Made by a program: the position numbers and the translations under genes | Notes under the pieces: generated by a model | What the model saw: the letters and a program-made list of their open reading frames with translations, nothing else | The model's database searches: none | Told to the model about the DNA's origin: nothing | NCBI GenBank assembly: GCA_020445665.1 | Contig: JAGRGD010000018.1 | Location: 1 to 40,580 of the forward strand | Length of the DNA: 40,580 nt | From: Rhodocyclaceae bacterium | GTDB lineage: Bacteria; Pseudomonadota; Gammaproteobacteria; Burkholderiales; Rhodocyclaceae | Direction of reading: 5' to 3' | Part shown: in pieces, positions 22,710 to 32,949 of the stretch | Position numbering within the stretch: the stretch's first letter is position 1 | Layout of the letters: the number at the start of each line of letters is the position of its first letter

Positions 22710-24116
22710 GTGCCAGCCGGAGCCCTCCCCATTCCCCTGTCCCGCGTCCGCTTTGCTGAGCTGATCGGCTCCCTGAGCTACGCCCTCGATCTCACCGAAG
22801 GCCAGCCGCCGGGCCACTGCATGCGTTGCTGCTGGATCGGTACCCACGTGGGGATGCGTCTGGGGCTCGGGCCCGAGGCGCTCTGGGAGCTCTATTACAC
22901 GCTGCTGCTCAAGGACCTGGGCTGCAGCAGCAACGCGGCCCGGATCTGTGAGCTCTACCGGACCGACGACCGCCACTTCAAGCGCGACTTCAAGCAGGTG
23001 GACGGCAGCCCGTCCCAGGTCCTGCGCTTCGTCTTCGGCCACACCGGCGTCGGGGCGCCCCTGAAGGCCCGCCTCGGGGCCGTCCTCGGCATCCTCGCCG
23101 ACGGCGATCGCATCGCCCAGGAGCTGATCCAGACCCGTTGCCAGCGCGGCGCCGATATCGCCCGCTCGCTGCGCTTCGGCGAGCGCGTCGCCGAGGGCAT
23201 CCATGCGCTGGACGAACACTGGGACGGCGGCGGCCGGCCGGACGGTCTGAAGGGACGCGGCATTCCCCTCTATGCGCGTATCGCGCTGCTGGCCCAGGTG
23301 ATCGATGTCTTCCACACCGCCGATGGGAGGGACGCCGCGCTCTCCGAGGTCCGCCACCGCGCCGGCAGCTGGTTCGATCCGGAGCTGGTGCGCATCGTCG
23401 AGTCGCTGGCGCACGAGGAAGCCTTCTGGCGCCGCCTCTCGGCCGATGACCTCGACGACCATGTGGTGGCGCTCGAGCCTGAATCCCGTGACGTGGCGCT
23501 GGATGAGGACTACCTGGACGCGATCGCCGAGGCTTTCGGCCAGGTCGTCGATGCCAAGAGCCCGTATACGGCCGGGCACAGCACCCGTGTCGCCCACTAC
23601 ACGGAGCGCCTGGCGATGGAGCTGGGCGTATCGCCGACGCGGCGTCGCTGGCTGTGGCGGGCGGCCCTGCTGCACGACGTCGGCAAGCTCGGGGTCAGTA
23701 ATGCGATCCTCGACAAGCCGGGTCGGCTCGACCCCGACGAGTGGGAGGCGGTCAAGCGCCATGCGGCATTGTCCGAGGAAATCCTGCGCCGCATCCCGGC
23801 CCTCGAAGCGCTGGCGGCGACCGCGGCCGGCCACCACGAGCGGCTCGATGGCGGTGGCTATCCACGCGGCCTGTCGGGGGCCGATATCTCGCTCGAGACG
23901 CGGATCATCACGACCGCCGACATCTTCGACGCCATTACCGCCGAACGGCCTTATCGGGGCGCGATTCCGGTCGGCAGGACCCTCGAGATCATGGCCGAAT
24001 CGGTCGGCACGGCGATCGATGCGCGTTGCTTCGAGGCCCTGAAGGCCGCCCTCCGCGACGAAGGCACGGCTGCGGCCGGCAACCCTGCCCTTGACGCCGC
24101 TGCTGCCGCTCGGTAA
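22710..24116 (+). CDS. Tandem HD-GYP domain protein (cyclic-di-GMP phosphodiesterase-like)
   Basis: 468 residues from GTG; the only good GGAGG is 18 bases upstream, so the start is uncertain. Two HD modules are seen. The N-terminal one (about 10-215) has GHCMRCCWIGTHVG, KDLG where HD is expected, and DEHWDGGGRPDGLKG in place of the GYP loop, so it is degenerate. The C-terminal one (about 265-450) is canonical: YTAGHSTRVAHYTERLA, HDVGKLGVSN and HHERLDGGGYPRGLSG. HD-GYP proteins hydrolyse cyclic di-GMP to pGpG or GMP. No sensory or receiver domain is attached. The leuA leader promoter appears to lie in its last codons. Confidence 0.9.
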   Translation: MPAGALPIPLSRVRFAELIGSLSYALDLTEGQPPGHCMRCCWIGTHVGMRLGLGPEALWELYYTLLLKDLGCSSNAARICELYRTDDRHFKRDFKQVDGSPSQVLRFVFGHTGVGAPLKARLGAVLGILADGDRIAQELIQTRCQRGADIARSLRFGERVAEGIHALDEHWDGGGRPDGLKGRGIPLYARIALLAQVIDVFHTADGRDAALSEVRHRAGSWFDPELVRIVESLAHEEAFWRRLSADDLDDHVVALEPESRDVALDEDYLDAIAEAFGQVVDAKSPYTAGHSTRVAHYTERLAMELGVSPTRRRWLWRAALLHDVGKLGVSNAILDKPGRLDPDEWEAVKRHAALSEEILRRIPALEALAATAAGHHERLDGGGYPRGLSGADISLETRIITTADIFDAITAERPYRGAIPVGRTLEIMAESVGTAIDARCFEALKAALRDEGTAAAGNPALDAAAAAR

Positions 24117-24119
24117 GTT
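24091..24119 (+). promoter_or_regulatory. Candidate promoter of the leuA leader
   Basis: TTGACG (24091-24096), a 17-base spacer and TAAGTT (24114-24119). The -35 is strong and the -10 weak. The start seven bases later would be 24126, the A of the first leader-peptide ATG, again leaderless. The promoter overlaps the end of the HD-GYP gene. Confidence 0.5.
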
Positions 24120-24125
24120 GCGCAC

Positions 24126-24227
24126 ATGAACCCGCAAACGGCCCGCCTCGATGTGATCGCCACGTCGCCCCTCCTGTCCGCCTCCGCCGGACTGGGCCTG
24201 CTGCTGCTGCGCGGTCCGCGCAGCTAA
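24126..24227 (+). CDS. Leucine-rich leader peptide 1 of leuA
   Basis: A 33-residue open frame from ATG 24126 to TAA 24225-24227, beginning MNPQTARLDV and ending GLGLLLLRGPRS. Five of the six residues at 23-28 are Leu or an adjoining Gly-Leu pair, with four consecutive CTG codons (24198-24209). This is the signature of a leucine attenuator peptide, whose translation speed reports charged tRNA-Leu. There is no Shine-Dalgarno; the candidate promoter places the transcript start on the ATG. A hairpin (24206-24224) begins within the last two Leu codons, so a stalled ribosome would melt it. The gene lies 313 bases before leuA. Protein function outside regulation is not expected. Confidence 0.75.
   Translation: MNPQTARLDVIATSPLLSASAGLGLLLLRGPRS
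24206..24224 (+). promoter_or_regulatory. Hairpin at the end of leader peptide 1
   Basis: GCTGCGCG and CGCGCAGC, a perfect 8-bp stem with loop GTC. The following TAACTTTC is too poor in U for a standard terminator. The 5' arm can instead pair over 13 bp with 24368-24380 in leader 2. Confidence 0.6.
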
Positions 24228-24322
24228 CTTTCACCCCCCTCCTGTTGATTGCCTGATCCCGTTGCCGCGAGCGTGGCGACGCGAATCGATGCCGTATTCC
24301 GTTCACCCCGACGAGCCCTGAC

Positions 24323-24379
24323 ATGTACACGATTCTCCGACTTCTGCTGCGACTGCCGACCGGCGTCCGGACCGCGTAG
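24323..24379 (+). CDS. Leucine-rich leader peptide 2 of leuA
   Basis: An 18-residue open frame from ATG 24323 to TAG 24377-24379, reading MYTILRLLLRLPTGVRTA. Five Leu codons lie in seven positions (CTC, CTT, CTG, CTG, CTG at residues 5, 7-9, 11), preceded by Ile. This is the classic size and layout of a branched-chain amino-acid leader peptide. Its end overlaps the hairpin 24365-24397, and the leuA Shine-Dalgarno is 49 bases further on. No strong Shine-Dalgarno precedes it. A 10-residue mini-frame (24289-24321) ends one base before its ATG and could feed ribosomes to it by coupling; that is speculative. Confidence 0.7.
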   Translation: MYTILRLLLRLPTGVRTA

Positions 24380-24397
24380 CCCCGCGGCCGTCCGGAC
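24365..24397 (+). promoter_or_regulatory. Hairpin between leader 2 and leuA
   Basis: Two copies of the self-complementary GTCCGGAC (24365-24372 and 24390-24397) pair, extended by CGCG/CGCG (24373-24376 with 24383-24386) across a 3-base bulge. No U-run follows. The 5' arm is inside the leader 2 frame, so ribosome position should control folding. Confidence 0.6.
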
Positions 24398-24439
24398 GTC
24401 TCCGCCGCTCACCCGACAGCAGACAGAAAGGAGTTCCCC

Positions 24440-26146
24440 ATGTTGAAACAACCCGCCACCAAGTACCGCCCATTCACGCCCTTCGCCGGAGCGGCCCGGC
24501 TCGAGCAGCGCCGCTGGCCCGATCACCGCATCGAACAGCCGCCGGTCTGGATGAGCACCGACCTGCGCGACGGCAATCAGGCCCTGTTCGAGCCGATGGA
24601 CAGCGAGCGGAAGCTGCGCATGTTCCAGATGCTCGTCGAGATCGGCTTCAAGGAGATCGAGATCGGCTTCCCGTCCGCCTCGCAGACCGACTTCGACTTC
24701 GTCCGGACCCTCATCGAGGGCGGACACATCCCCGAGGACGTGACCATCGAGGTCCTCACCCAGGCGCGAGAGCACCTGATCGAACGGACCTTCGAGGCCG
24801 TAGAGGGCGCGCGCCGGGTGATCATCCACTTCTACAACGCCTGCGCCGAGAACTTCCGTCGCATCGTCTTCAACGAGGACGAGGCCGGCGTCCGGCGGAT
24901 CGCGATGGAGGGCGCGCGGATGATCCGCGAGCACGCCGCCCGGCATCCGGAGACCGAGTTCGTCTTCCAGTACAGCCCGGAAGTGTTCTCCGGCGCGGAA
25001 CTCGGCTTCGTGCGCGACGTCGTGGATGCGGTCACCGCGATCTGGCAGCCCACCGCCGAGCGCAAGTGCATCATCAACCTTCCGGCCACGGTCGAGATGA
25101 GCACGCCCAACATCTACGCTGATCAGATCGAATGGATGCACCGCAACCTGGCACGCCGCGAGGGCATCGTGCTGTCCGTGCATCCCCACAACGACCGGGG
25201 TACGGCCGTCGCCGCGGCCGAACTGGCCCTGATGGCGGGCGCGGACCGGATCGAGGGCTGCCTGTTCGGTCACGGCGAGCGCACCGGCAACGTGGACCTC
25301 GTGACCCTGGCCCTCAACCTCTACAGCCAGGGCGTGCATCCGGGCCTCGACTTCTCGCGCCTCAACGAGATCGCGCGCACCGTGGAGCACTGCACCCAGT
25401 TGCCGATCCATCCGCGCCACCCCTACGTGGGCGATCTCGTCTTCACGGCGTTCTCCGGTTCACACCAGGACGCGATCAAGAAGGGCTTCGCCGCGCAGGA
25501 TCCGGAGCGCAGCTGGGAGGTGCCCTATCTGCCGGTGGACCCGGCCGACCTCGGCCGCACCTACGACTCGATCATTCGCGTGAACAGCCAGTCCGGCAAG
25601 GGCGGCATCGCCTACCTGATGGAATCCGAGTACGGCGTCGCGCTGCCGCGTCGCCTGCAGGTGGAGTTCTCCGCCGCGGTCCAGGGGATGGCCGATGCCA
25701 GCGGCAAGGAAGTGCTGGCCGCCGACATCTGGCGGTGTTTCGAGACGGAGTACCTGGCCGCCGCGGAGCCCGTCGGCTTCGTCGAGCATCATCTGTTCGA
25801 GCAGGGCGCCCAGCAGGGCATTGCGCTCACGGTCGCCCTCGAGGACCAGACCTGCGTCCTGCGCGGGGTCGGCAACGGCCCGATCGATGCCGCCATTCAC
25901 GCCCTCGGCGCGCGGGTGAGCCTGCTCGATTATGAGGAGCGGGCGATCGGTCACGGCTCCGATGCGCGAGCGGCTGCCTTTGTCGAACTCGGGGTCCCCG
26001 GCGTGGCCGGCACCGTTTTCGGCGTCGGCGTCCATTCGAACATCGTCACCGCGTCGATCCTCGCCATCGTCTCCGGCGTCAACCGCATCGCGGCGCGCTG
26101 GCCGGACGCCCTGGTATTCGCCCGCACCGGCACCGGGGACCGCTGA
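24440..26146 (+). CDS. leuA: 2-isopropylmalate synthase
   Basis: First committed step of leucine synthesis: acetyl-CoA plus 2-ketoisovalerate gives 2-isopropylmalate. 568 residues, the longer LeuA type seen in Pseudomonas. The DRE-TIM barrel is recognisable by [15 protein letters not shown] (metal and substrate site, about residue 39), [38 protein letters not shown] with the HxH-type metal ligands, and [15 protein letters not shown] linker leads to the C-terminal LeuA dimer or allosteric domain (about 430-560), the site of leucine feedback inhibition. AAGGAG lies six bases before the ATG. Upstream are two leucine leader peptides; downstream is a 16-bp hairpin, so it is a single-gene transcript. 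Confidence 0.98.
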
Positions 26147-32735: not shown

Positions 32736-32761
32736 ATCAATGAGTTGTTCGTGCAGGTCAA

Positions 32762-32942
32762 TCCCCTGCAGTGTTCGTGCTGGCCGTAGATTCCTTGAAC
32801 CAATGTCTTCGTGACTTGGTTGCCGACCGATGATTTTGCTGGTGTGCGGTCCCCTCCGTCGGGAACGCCTGATGCAACAGGAAGGCGACCTCCCTGAACC
32901 CTCGGTTCAGGATGCCCGGCCAGGGCGGCACGCGCGGGGGGC
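32762..32942 (+). ncRNA. ssrS: 6S RNA
   Basis: About 180 bases directly after zapA, the conserved place for 6S RNA. The ends pair as the closing stem: CCCCTGCAGTG (32763-32773) with CACGCGCGGGGG (32929-32940), one bulge. Family landmarks are TGTTCGTGCTGGCC near the 5' end, a largely unpaired centre, CTCCGTCGGGAACGCC on the far arm, and CCCTGAACCCTCGGTTCAGG with GCCAGGGCGGCACG near the 3' end. 6S RNA mimics an open promoter and sequesters sigma-70 RNA polymerase in stationary phase. Exact ends are estimated to within about 10 bases. No ygfA (formyl-THF cyclo-ligase) gene follows. Confidence 0.88.
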
Positions 32943-32949
32943 CAAACAG

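Follow-up and report, generated by a model that had tools for sequence, protein, structure and literature searches.

Tandem leucine leaders upstream of leuA: a probable leucine sensor with a LEU-like pseudoknot in a Rhodocyclaceae bacterium and its relatives

Background

Attenuation is classically illustrated by leucine leaders. The locus described here raises the question of how a leuA gene might be controlled when two leucine-rich frames precede it and no intrinsic terminator accompanies them. The window, by which we mean the whole 40,580-nucleotide stretch analysed (contig JAGRGD010000018.1 of assembly GCA_020445665.1, a Rhodocyclaceae bacterium), carries a leuA of the PRK03739 or yeast-like type (NF002991, E 5.8e-261; TIGR00970, E 1.8e-231), preceded by short Leu-rich frames at 24126-24227 and 24323-24379. 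A first-pass annotation, made from the sequence alone, had read both as leader peptides on one leuA mRNA and had joined them by a 13-bp RNA helix into a single switch. As set out below, the tandem is right and the 13-bp helix is wrong as a general mechanism. Because the pair is found again in bacteria both close and distant, the tandem probably represents a real leucine sensor, one that appears to be undescribed: among the mainly open-access titles and abstract openings surveyed, none describes a proteobacterial leader of this kind.

Results

The leuA locus

The features discussed are as follows.

24091..24119, + strand: predicted sigma70-like promoter, position conserved before the leader-1 ATG (-35 TTGACG 24091-24096; 17-nt spacer; -10 TAAGTT 24114-24119)
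24126..24227, + strand: leader 1 (ORF1), MNPQTARLDVIATSPLLSASAGLGLLLLRGPRS, predicted leaderless
24206..24224, + strand: leader-1 hairpin, GCUGCGC 24206-24212 with GCGCAGC 24218-24224
24234..24244, + strand: pyrimidine-rich tract after leader 1, CCCCCCUCCUG, a sequence reading
24323..24379, + strand: leader 2 (ORF2), MYTILRLLLRLPTGVRTA, core Leu-Arg-Leu, stop codon in the P1 loop
24335..24433, + strand: P0 base stem, from the minimum free energy (MFE) fold, CUCC 24335-24338 with GGAG 24430-24433 (the leuA Shine-Dalgarno sequence, SD); second part, UCUGCUG 24343-24349 with CAGCAGA 24417-24423
24362..24400, + strand: P1 hairpin, 24362-24372 with 24390-24400, 11 bp
24384..24408, + strand: P2 pseudoknot helix, loop GCGGC 24384-24388 with GCCGC 24404-24408
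24440..26146, + strand: leuA, 2-isopropylmalate synthase, 568 aa

Upstream lies a gene for an HD-domain protein (22710-24116), the end of which coincides with the predicted -10 element. Both leader frames were found as first annotated: leader 1 has 33 codons with four consecutive CTG, and leader 2 has 18 codons with the run L-R-L-L-L-R-L. Both frames are also kept in congeners, and two genuine Leu leaders on one leuA mRNA remain the predicted arrangement. The absence of an intrinsic terminator likewise holds, a terminator scan of 23950-24500 having returned no terminator-like site. Strict and relaxed Rfam searches gave no match within 24050-24500 up to E 10; for 15 relatives, six matches up to E 1 were obtained, all below the gathering scores and none, by position, at the leaders.

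Loci compared

Comparisons drew on 198 leuA loci, chosen by similarity to the window leuA and not at random (26 from one search, all 80 from a second, then 25, 40 regions and 27 from further searches), or 191 after removal of seven duplicates. Left out were 26 of the 102 leuA matches of one search, 40 matches of another, L028-L031, L199 (its start lies 40 bases from the contig edge) and L209 (the same as L181). From 42 loci we constructed a covariance model of the leader-2 element, R1, which at E up to 0.1 matched 47 of 100 and 26 of 99 leuA loci; these 73 matches were reduced to 69 by dropping the duplicates L161 and L206, L133 and the weak L195, while three weak loci were kept (L015, L095 and L188; E 0.0016-0.018). 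The 69 include the 42 loci that had served to build the model. Leader-2 starts and leader-1 stops for the tests of leader-1 tails were hand-chosen from listings, as were the 24 tandem loci compared for the 13-bp helix.

Leader 1 appears to be leaderless

As judged from promoter position, the predicted transcript starts at or adjoining A24126, the first base of leader 1, and in most of the loci compared the promoter falls in the same place. When leader 1 was picked promoter-blind, by frame and Leu content only, and the best sigma70-like promoter was then taken within a 190-nt stretch, that promoter lay 12-15 nt 5' of the leader-1 ATG in 32 of 37 loci (16 at 12 nt, 10 at 13 nt). Five loci depart from this rule: in L003 and L201 an earlier in-frame ATG would restore the fit, and L052, L077 and L162 are misfits. 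A strict joint scan, which combined promoter score, spacing and at least four Leu in eight residues, found leaderless Leu ORFs in 70/191 loci, compared with 0/191 reverse complements and 0-1/191 in each of five dinucleotide shuffles. Counting against the prediction, the window promoter agrees with the consensus at 8 of 12 bases by our own count, and a scan that demanded nine found no promoter in the window. Leader 1 is predicted to be leaderless. Since a conserved promoter adjoins leader 1, a leuA mRNA beginning 3' of 24230, which the first-pass annotation had named as refuting its model, is unlikely.

Leader 1 ends in a small hairpin, which begins at its final Leu codon and closes shortly ahead of the stop. 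The pattern GCGC, 3 to 5 nt, GCGC is present in 46 of 74 Leu-rich leader tails, a mixed list of rows picked by C-terminal motif in which tails of the single-leader type are included, and it is kept in loci of 37-47% G+C (L086, L089, L053 and L064). Elsewhere, by eye, GCCC/GGGC or GCGG/CCGC takes its place. Pyrimidine-rich tracts similar to that at 24234-24244 also recur, by eye, after leader 1 in relatives.

Leader 2 borders an H-type pseudoknot

Leader 2 is predicted to form the 5' edge of an H-type pseudoknot composed of P1 and P2. P1 shows two-sided changes at 9 of its 11 pairs, with 96.8% of cells paired over 42 sequences. The end of the P1 loop typically reads GYGGC, and a script searching the 24 nt after P1 found an exact complement of a locus's own loop 5-mer in 41/68 loci; loci carrying a different loop type gave an expectation of 8.2. 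The script was used because P2 lies at a variable distance, which makes MAFFT columns unusable for this helix. In 39 of these 41 exact cases the partner lies 2-9 nt after P1. The mean best P2 helix score over 69 loci was 14.2, compared with 12.7 for species swaps and 11.6 for shuffles. Both sides of P2 are changed in L150 and L156, which have GCGGC/GCCGC in place of the GUGGC/GCCAC of the similar L054, L059 and L071, and in L197 (CUGGC/GCCAG). An exact complement is absent in 27/68 loci, some of which pair through G-U or at other offsets.

A competing, upstream pairing of the same loop, between a Leu codon (CURC) and GYGG, had first seemed to covary, with 92.2% of cells paired. It was demoted for two reasons: in L150 and L156 the loop becomes GCGG and the Leu codon stays CUAC, the downstream partner being the one that changes with the loop; and the mean helix score barely exceeds that of species swaps (11.28 against 10.95).

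An SD-like sequence precedes leader 2 in 27 of 40 tandem loci; no clear one is seen in the window or in L003-L005, L006 has only GAAG, and L007 has GGAG. Leader 2 of L005 and L006 is reduced to two Leu codons. Both the lack of a clear SD and this reduction count against the reading preferred below. In some loci, such as L007, L008, L010, L046, L053, L058 and L075, the leader-2 frame crosses the pseudoknot and stops within the first leuA codons (end at +7), as if translationally coupled; the window leader 2, unlike these, stops in the P1 loop.

A potential base stem between the leader-2 Leu region and the leuA ribosome-binding site

In the MFE fold of a 125-nt stretch of the window (z -3.17; 1 of 200 shuffles as stable), the leuA SD is paired by P0, and when the leader-2 Leu region is removed the SD is unpaired in the centroid. 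Across loci, a 45-nt segment ending at P1 and containing the Leu codons showed excess pairing with the leuA ribosome-binding site in 18/68 cases by shuffle and 14/68 by swap. An upstream control gave 1/68 and 4/68, respectively, and four coding controls gave 3-6/60 and 3-5/60. A 40-nt version of the test gave 21/69 by shuffle and 18/69 by swap, and the pairing was rarer in loci with over 75 nt between the end of P1 and leuA (6/25 against 15/44). That significance is confined to a minority of loci, 18/68, counts against the reading we prefer.

Masking the leader-2 Leu region in silico raised the exposure of the leuA site by at least 0.15 in 12/68 loci, compared with 1/68 for a control mask. The effect is small on average (mean exposure 0.44 to 0.48 over 68 loci) and in the window, where SD exposure went from 0.41 to no more than 0.54; pseudoknots are beyond the scoring of the fold program. 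As the first-pass annotation had suggested, leuA translation is a likely output.

Equivalent tests upstream gave no signal. The leader-1 tail paired with the leader-2 ribosome-binding site in 4/40 loci by shuffle and 5/40 by swap, and the tract after leader 1 did so in 2/39 and 1/39. The test is noisy, a control of leader-1 tails against leuA coding sequence having given 6/39 by shuffle and 8/39 by swap. For 25 hand-chosen loci without the second element, pairing of the leader-1 tail with the leuA site was weak (4/25).

The two leaders come apart in evolution

Both frames are present in all five congeners found (L003-L007). Of the 69 element-bearing loci, 36 have a separate upstream leader by the strict scan and 33 do not, although L004-L006, counted among the 33, have a leader 1 with three Leu, below the threshold. 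Among all 191 loci, a further 33 have an upstream leader without the element and 89 have neither. Each leader thus occurs without the other, which indicates that the two come apart in evolution. The first-pass annotation had held that homologues with one frame missing would speak against it, and in part they do: both frames stand in every congener found, and many leuA genes elsewhere have a single leader by the strict scan.

At E up to 1e-4, R1 matched at least 21 of 300 genomes of the order, a lower bound because only 15 first-look candidates per genome were scored. Each of the 22 matches in these 300 genomes has a leuA of this type no more than about 200 nt downstream, as determined by coordinate comparison for 20 and by direct check for two (L120 and L133). 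The latter two (in G253 and G271) sit beside leuA copies missing from the leuA match list: that of L120 aligns as pieces in different frames, and that of L133 is a partial match to residues 1-329. G271 has two leuA copies, with the element before each. Two cyanobacterial records, L052 and L053, also have a Leu-rich upstream frame and a leader-2 element before a leuA of this type, which suggests possible horizontal transfer.

Discussion

Relation to known leaders

The closest counterpart is the LEU element of Actinobacteria, in which Seliverstov et al. (2005, PMC1262725) describe a Leu leader together with a pseudoknot, and a base stem between the Leu-codon run and the leuA Shine-Dalgarno box. 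We examined 30 actinobacterial loci belonging to a single order (30 of 41 genomes); in all 30 a leader is followed by a P1 whose loop holds the stop codon and by a P2 of 6-9 bp. Shared with the present element are the Leu-codon-run leader ORF directly before leuA and a pseudoknot between leader and leuA, supported here by P1 covariation and P2 complements. The base stem is a candidate third common feature, present here in the window MFE fold and enriched across loci, although significant in 18/68 only. The differences are that the present element is found in Proteobacteria and a few cyanobacteria and differs in sequence, that the P2 partner lies 14-18 nt after P1 in actinobacteria as opposed to 2-9 nt here (39/41), and that here a second, apparently leaderless leader precedes in 36/69 loci. 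R1 found none of the 30 actinobacterial loci convincingly (best E 0.32). This search gave no sign of common descent, and we therefore refer to the window element as LEU-like and not as a member of LEU. Seliverstov et al. cite mutational work in Streptomyces that does not fit classical attenuation through Leu codons, and in their account the mechanism of LEU is left open with a binding protein favoured (PMC1262725). By analogy, the Streptomyces evidence, as reported there, weighs against a leader-driven mechanism in the present case too.

Other systems share single features. The leu attenuators of E. coli, Salmonella and Shewanella are described as a single leader with terminator and antiterminator (PMC6123439, PMC2659441); the Leu-codon leader peptide before leuA is common to both, and the terminator, present there, has no counterpart in the interval scanned here. 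The Sinorhizobium trpL transcript is reported to begin at the leader-ORF ATG (PMC7298713), and thus resembles leader 1 in having a leader ORF at the mRNA 5' end, here predicted from promoter position, but it concerns Trp, has one leader and acts by transcription attenuation. Two leader peptides, ermBL and ermBL2, are described for the ermB translational attenuator (PMC8274638); stalling there is drug-induced and does not sense an amino acid.

A proposed mechanism

We regard a LEU-like translational attenuator, made up of leader 2 and the pseudoknot and preceded by an independent leaderless Leu leader, as the best explanation, at roughly even odds of being correct. The leuA message would begin at or adjoining the leader-1 AUG, so that ribosomes load at its 5' end and translate leader 1 as a leaderless ORF, the last Leu codon of which lies in the 5' arm of the terminal hairpin. 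About 100 nt downstream, the leader-2 module would place its Leu codons just before the H-type pseudoknot, in a coding region able to pair with the leuA site through P0. With leucyl-tRNA plentiful, ribosomes would clear leader 2, P0 and the pseudoknot would fold, and leuA translation would be low. With leucyl-tRNA scarce, a ribosome would stall on the leader-2 CUG codons, cover the 5' strand of P0, hinder P1 and free the leuA site. Sequence comparison supports the two leaders and the place of the promoter, the helices P1 and P2 and, for some of the species, the enrichment of P0; that ribosomes stall, which way regulation runs and that the output is translational are inferred. Leader 1 has probably evolved separately, since it is also found alone before leuA elsewhere, and it probably adds a Leu response of its own that is not coupled to leader 2 through the 13-bp helix.

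More tentatively, and with the balance of our judgement somewhat against it, the two leaders may constitute a two-stage leucine sensor in series, in which a leaderless 5' leader would act ahead of a LEU-like pseudoknot leader about 100 nt downstream, the latter gating leuA translation, with different thresholds or on different steps. If true, such a sensor would be a widespread tandem-leader amino-acid attenuator and would correspond, in Proteobacteria, to the LEU element of Actinobacteria. The reading preferred here, if right, would extend the question of LEU to culturable genera such as Zoogloea and Methylobacillus, would suggest that amino-acid leaders are stackable, and would add many predicted leaderless leader ORFs.

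Alternative explanations

In an unlikely but plausible alternative, control would be Rho-dependent: the C-rich stretch after leader 1 would serve as a rut site that ribosomes translating leader 1 expose or hide, and leader 2 would play a secondary part. The terminator-free interval 23950-24500 and the recurrence, by eye, of the pyrimidine-rich tract past the leader-1 stop are what such a mechanism would lead one to expect; the pseudoknot and the pairing of the leuA site, however, would be superfluous to it. It is rather less probable that leader 2 alone is functional in the window, leader 1 being an inherited relic or mere mRNA 5' end. Single-leader versions do exist, as the 33 of 69 element loci without a separate leader 1 illustrate (by the strict scan, with the three-Leu frames of L004-L006 among them), but a relic would be expected to decay, and across distant genera leader 1 has retained its reading frame, the Leu run at its end, the hairpin and the adjoining promoter.

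Classical transcription attenuation, through a weak terminator hairpin between the leaders or after leader 2, is improbable for the window. It is the mechanism described for enterobacterial and Shewanella leuA (PMC6123439, PMC2659441), and two of the loci compared, L179 and L180, have the look of a classical attenuator, with a Leu leader beside a promoter and then a strong hairpin and T-run before leuA. Against it stand the empty terminator scan and the finding, by eye, that most of 29 loci lack a T-run directly after their hairpins, although L009 and L046 among these have T-rich stretches a few bases further on.

The 13-bp helix

The single switch of the first-pass annotation, in which a 13-bp helix joins the Leu codons of leader 1 to the final part of leader 2 and so integrates two ribosome positions, is the least probable reading, and we give it very little credence. 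Its structural premises are correct: 24206-24218 and 24368-24380 form 13 uninterrupted pairs with one G-U, and this helix would clash with both local hairpins. A helix of at least 13 bp with no more than one G-U arose in none of 300 dinucleotide shuffles of 24120-24460 (in seven of 300 with any number of G-U pairs), so that it is unusual for the base composition. Both segments look to lie in sequence constrained for other reasons, namely the leader-1 hairpin and P1 with its loop.

The conservation expected of a switch was not found in relatives. At homologous positions in the 24 hand-chosen tandem loci, 13/13 pairs occur only in the window; the congeners L003-L007 have 10, 10, 11, 11 and 9, respectively, and the 18 others have 4-8. 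When shifts of up to 6 nt were allowed, these 18 loci outside the genus reached a best of 6-11 pairs, and L032 and L135, like L005 and L006 at the homologous position, attained 11/13 with a shifted partner. Leader-1 tails beat shuffles against the second element in 9/40 loci (coding control 6/39), but only 1/40 was species-matched by swap; in these comparisons the complementarity is generic and not species-matched. Masking leader 1 in silico did not raise the exposure of the leuA site (SD 0.41 to 0.40). The helix as a conserved switch was rejected on conservation, with 4-8 of 13 pairs in 18 loci and the swap result of 1/40.

Other observations in the same genome

The genome of the window has a second, distant leuA of 29% identity (L228; G000:C278:1394-2911), in the upstream stretch of which no Leu-rich leader is evident by eye. 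Elsewhere in the window, Rfam identified a 6S RNA at 32760-32944 on the + strand and an SAH riboswitch at 507-607 on the - strand.
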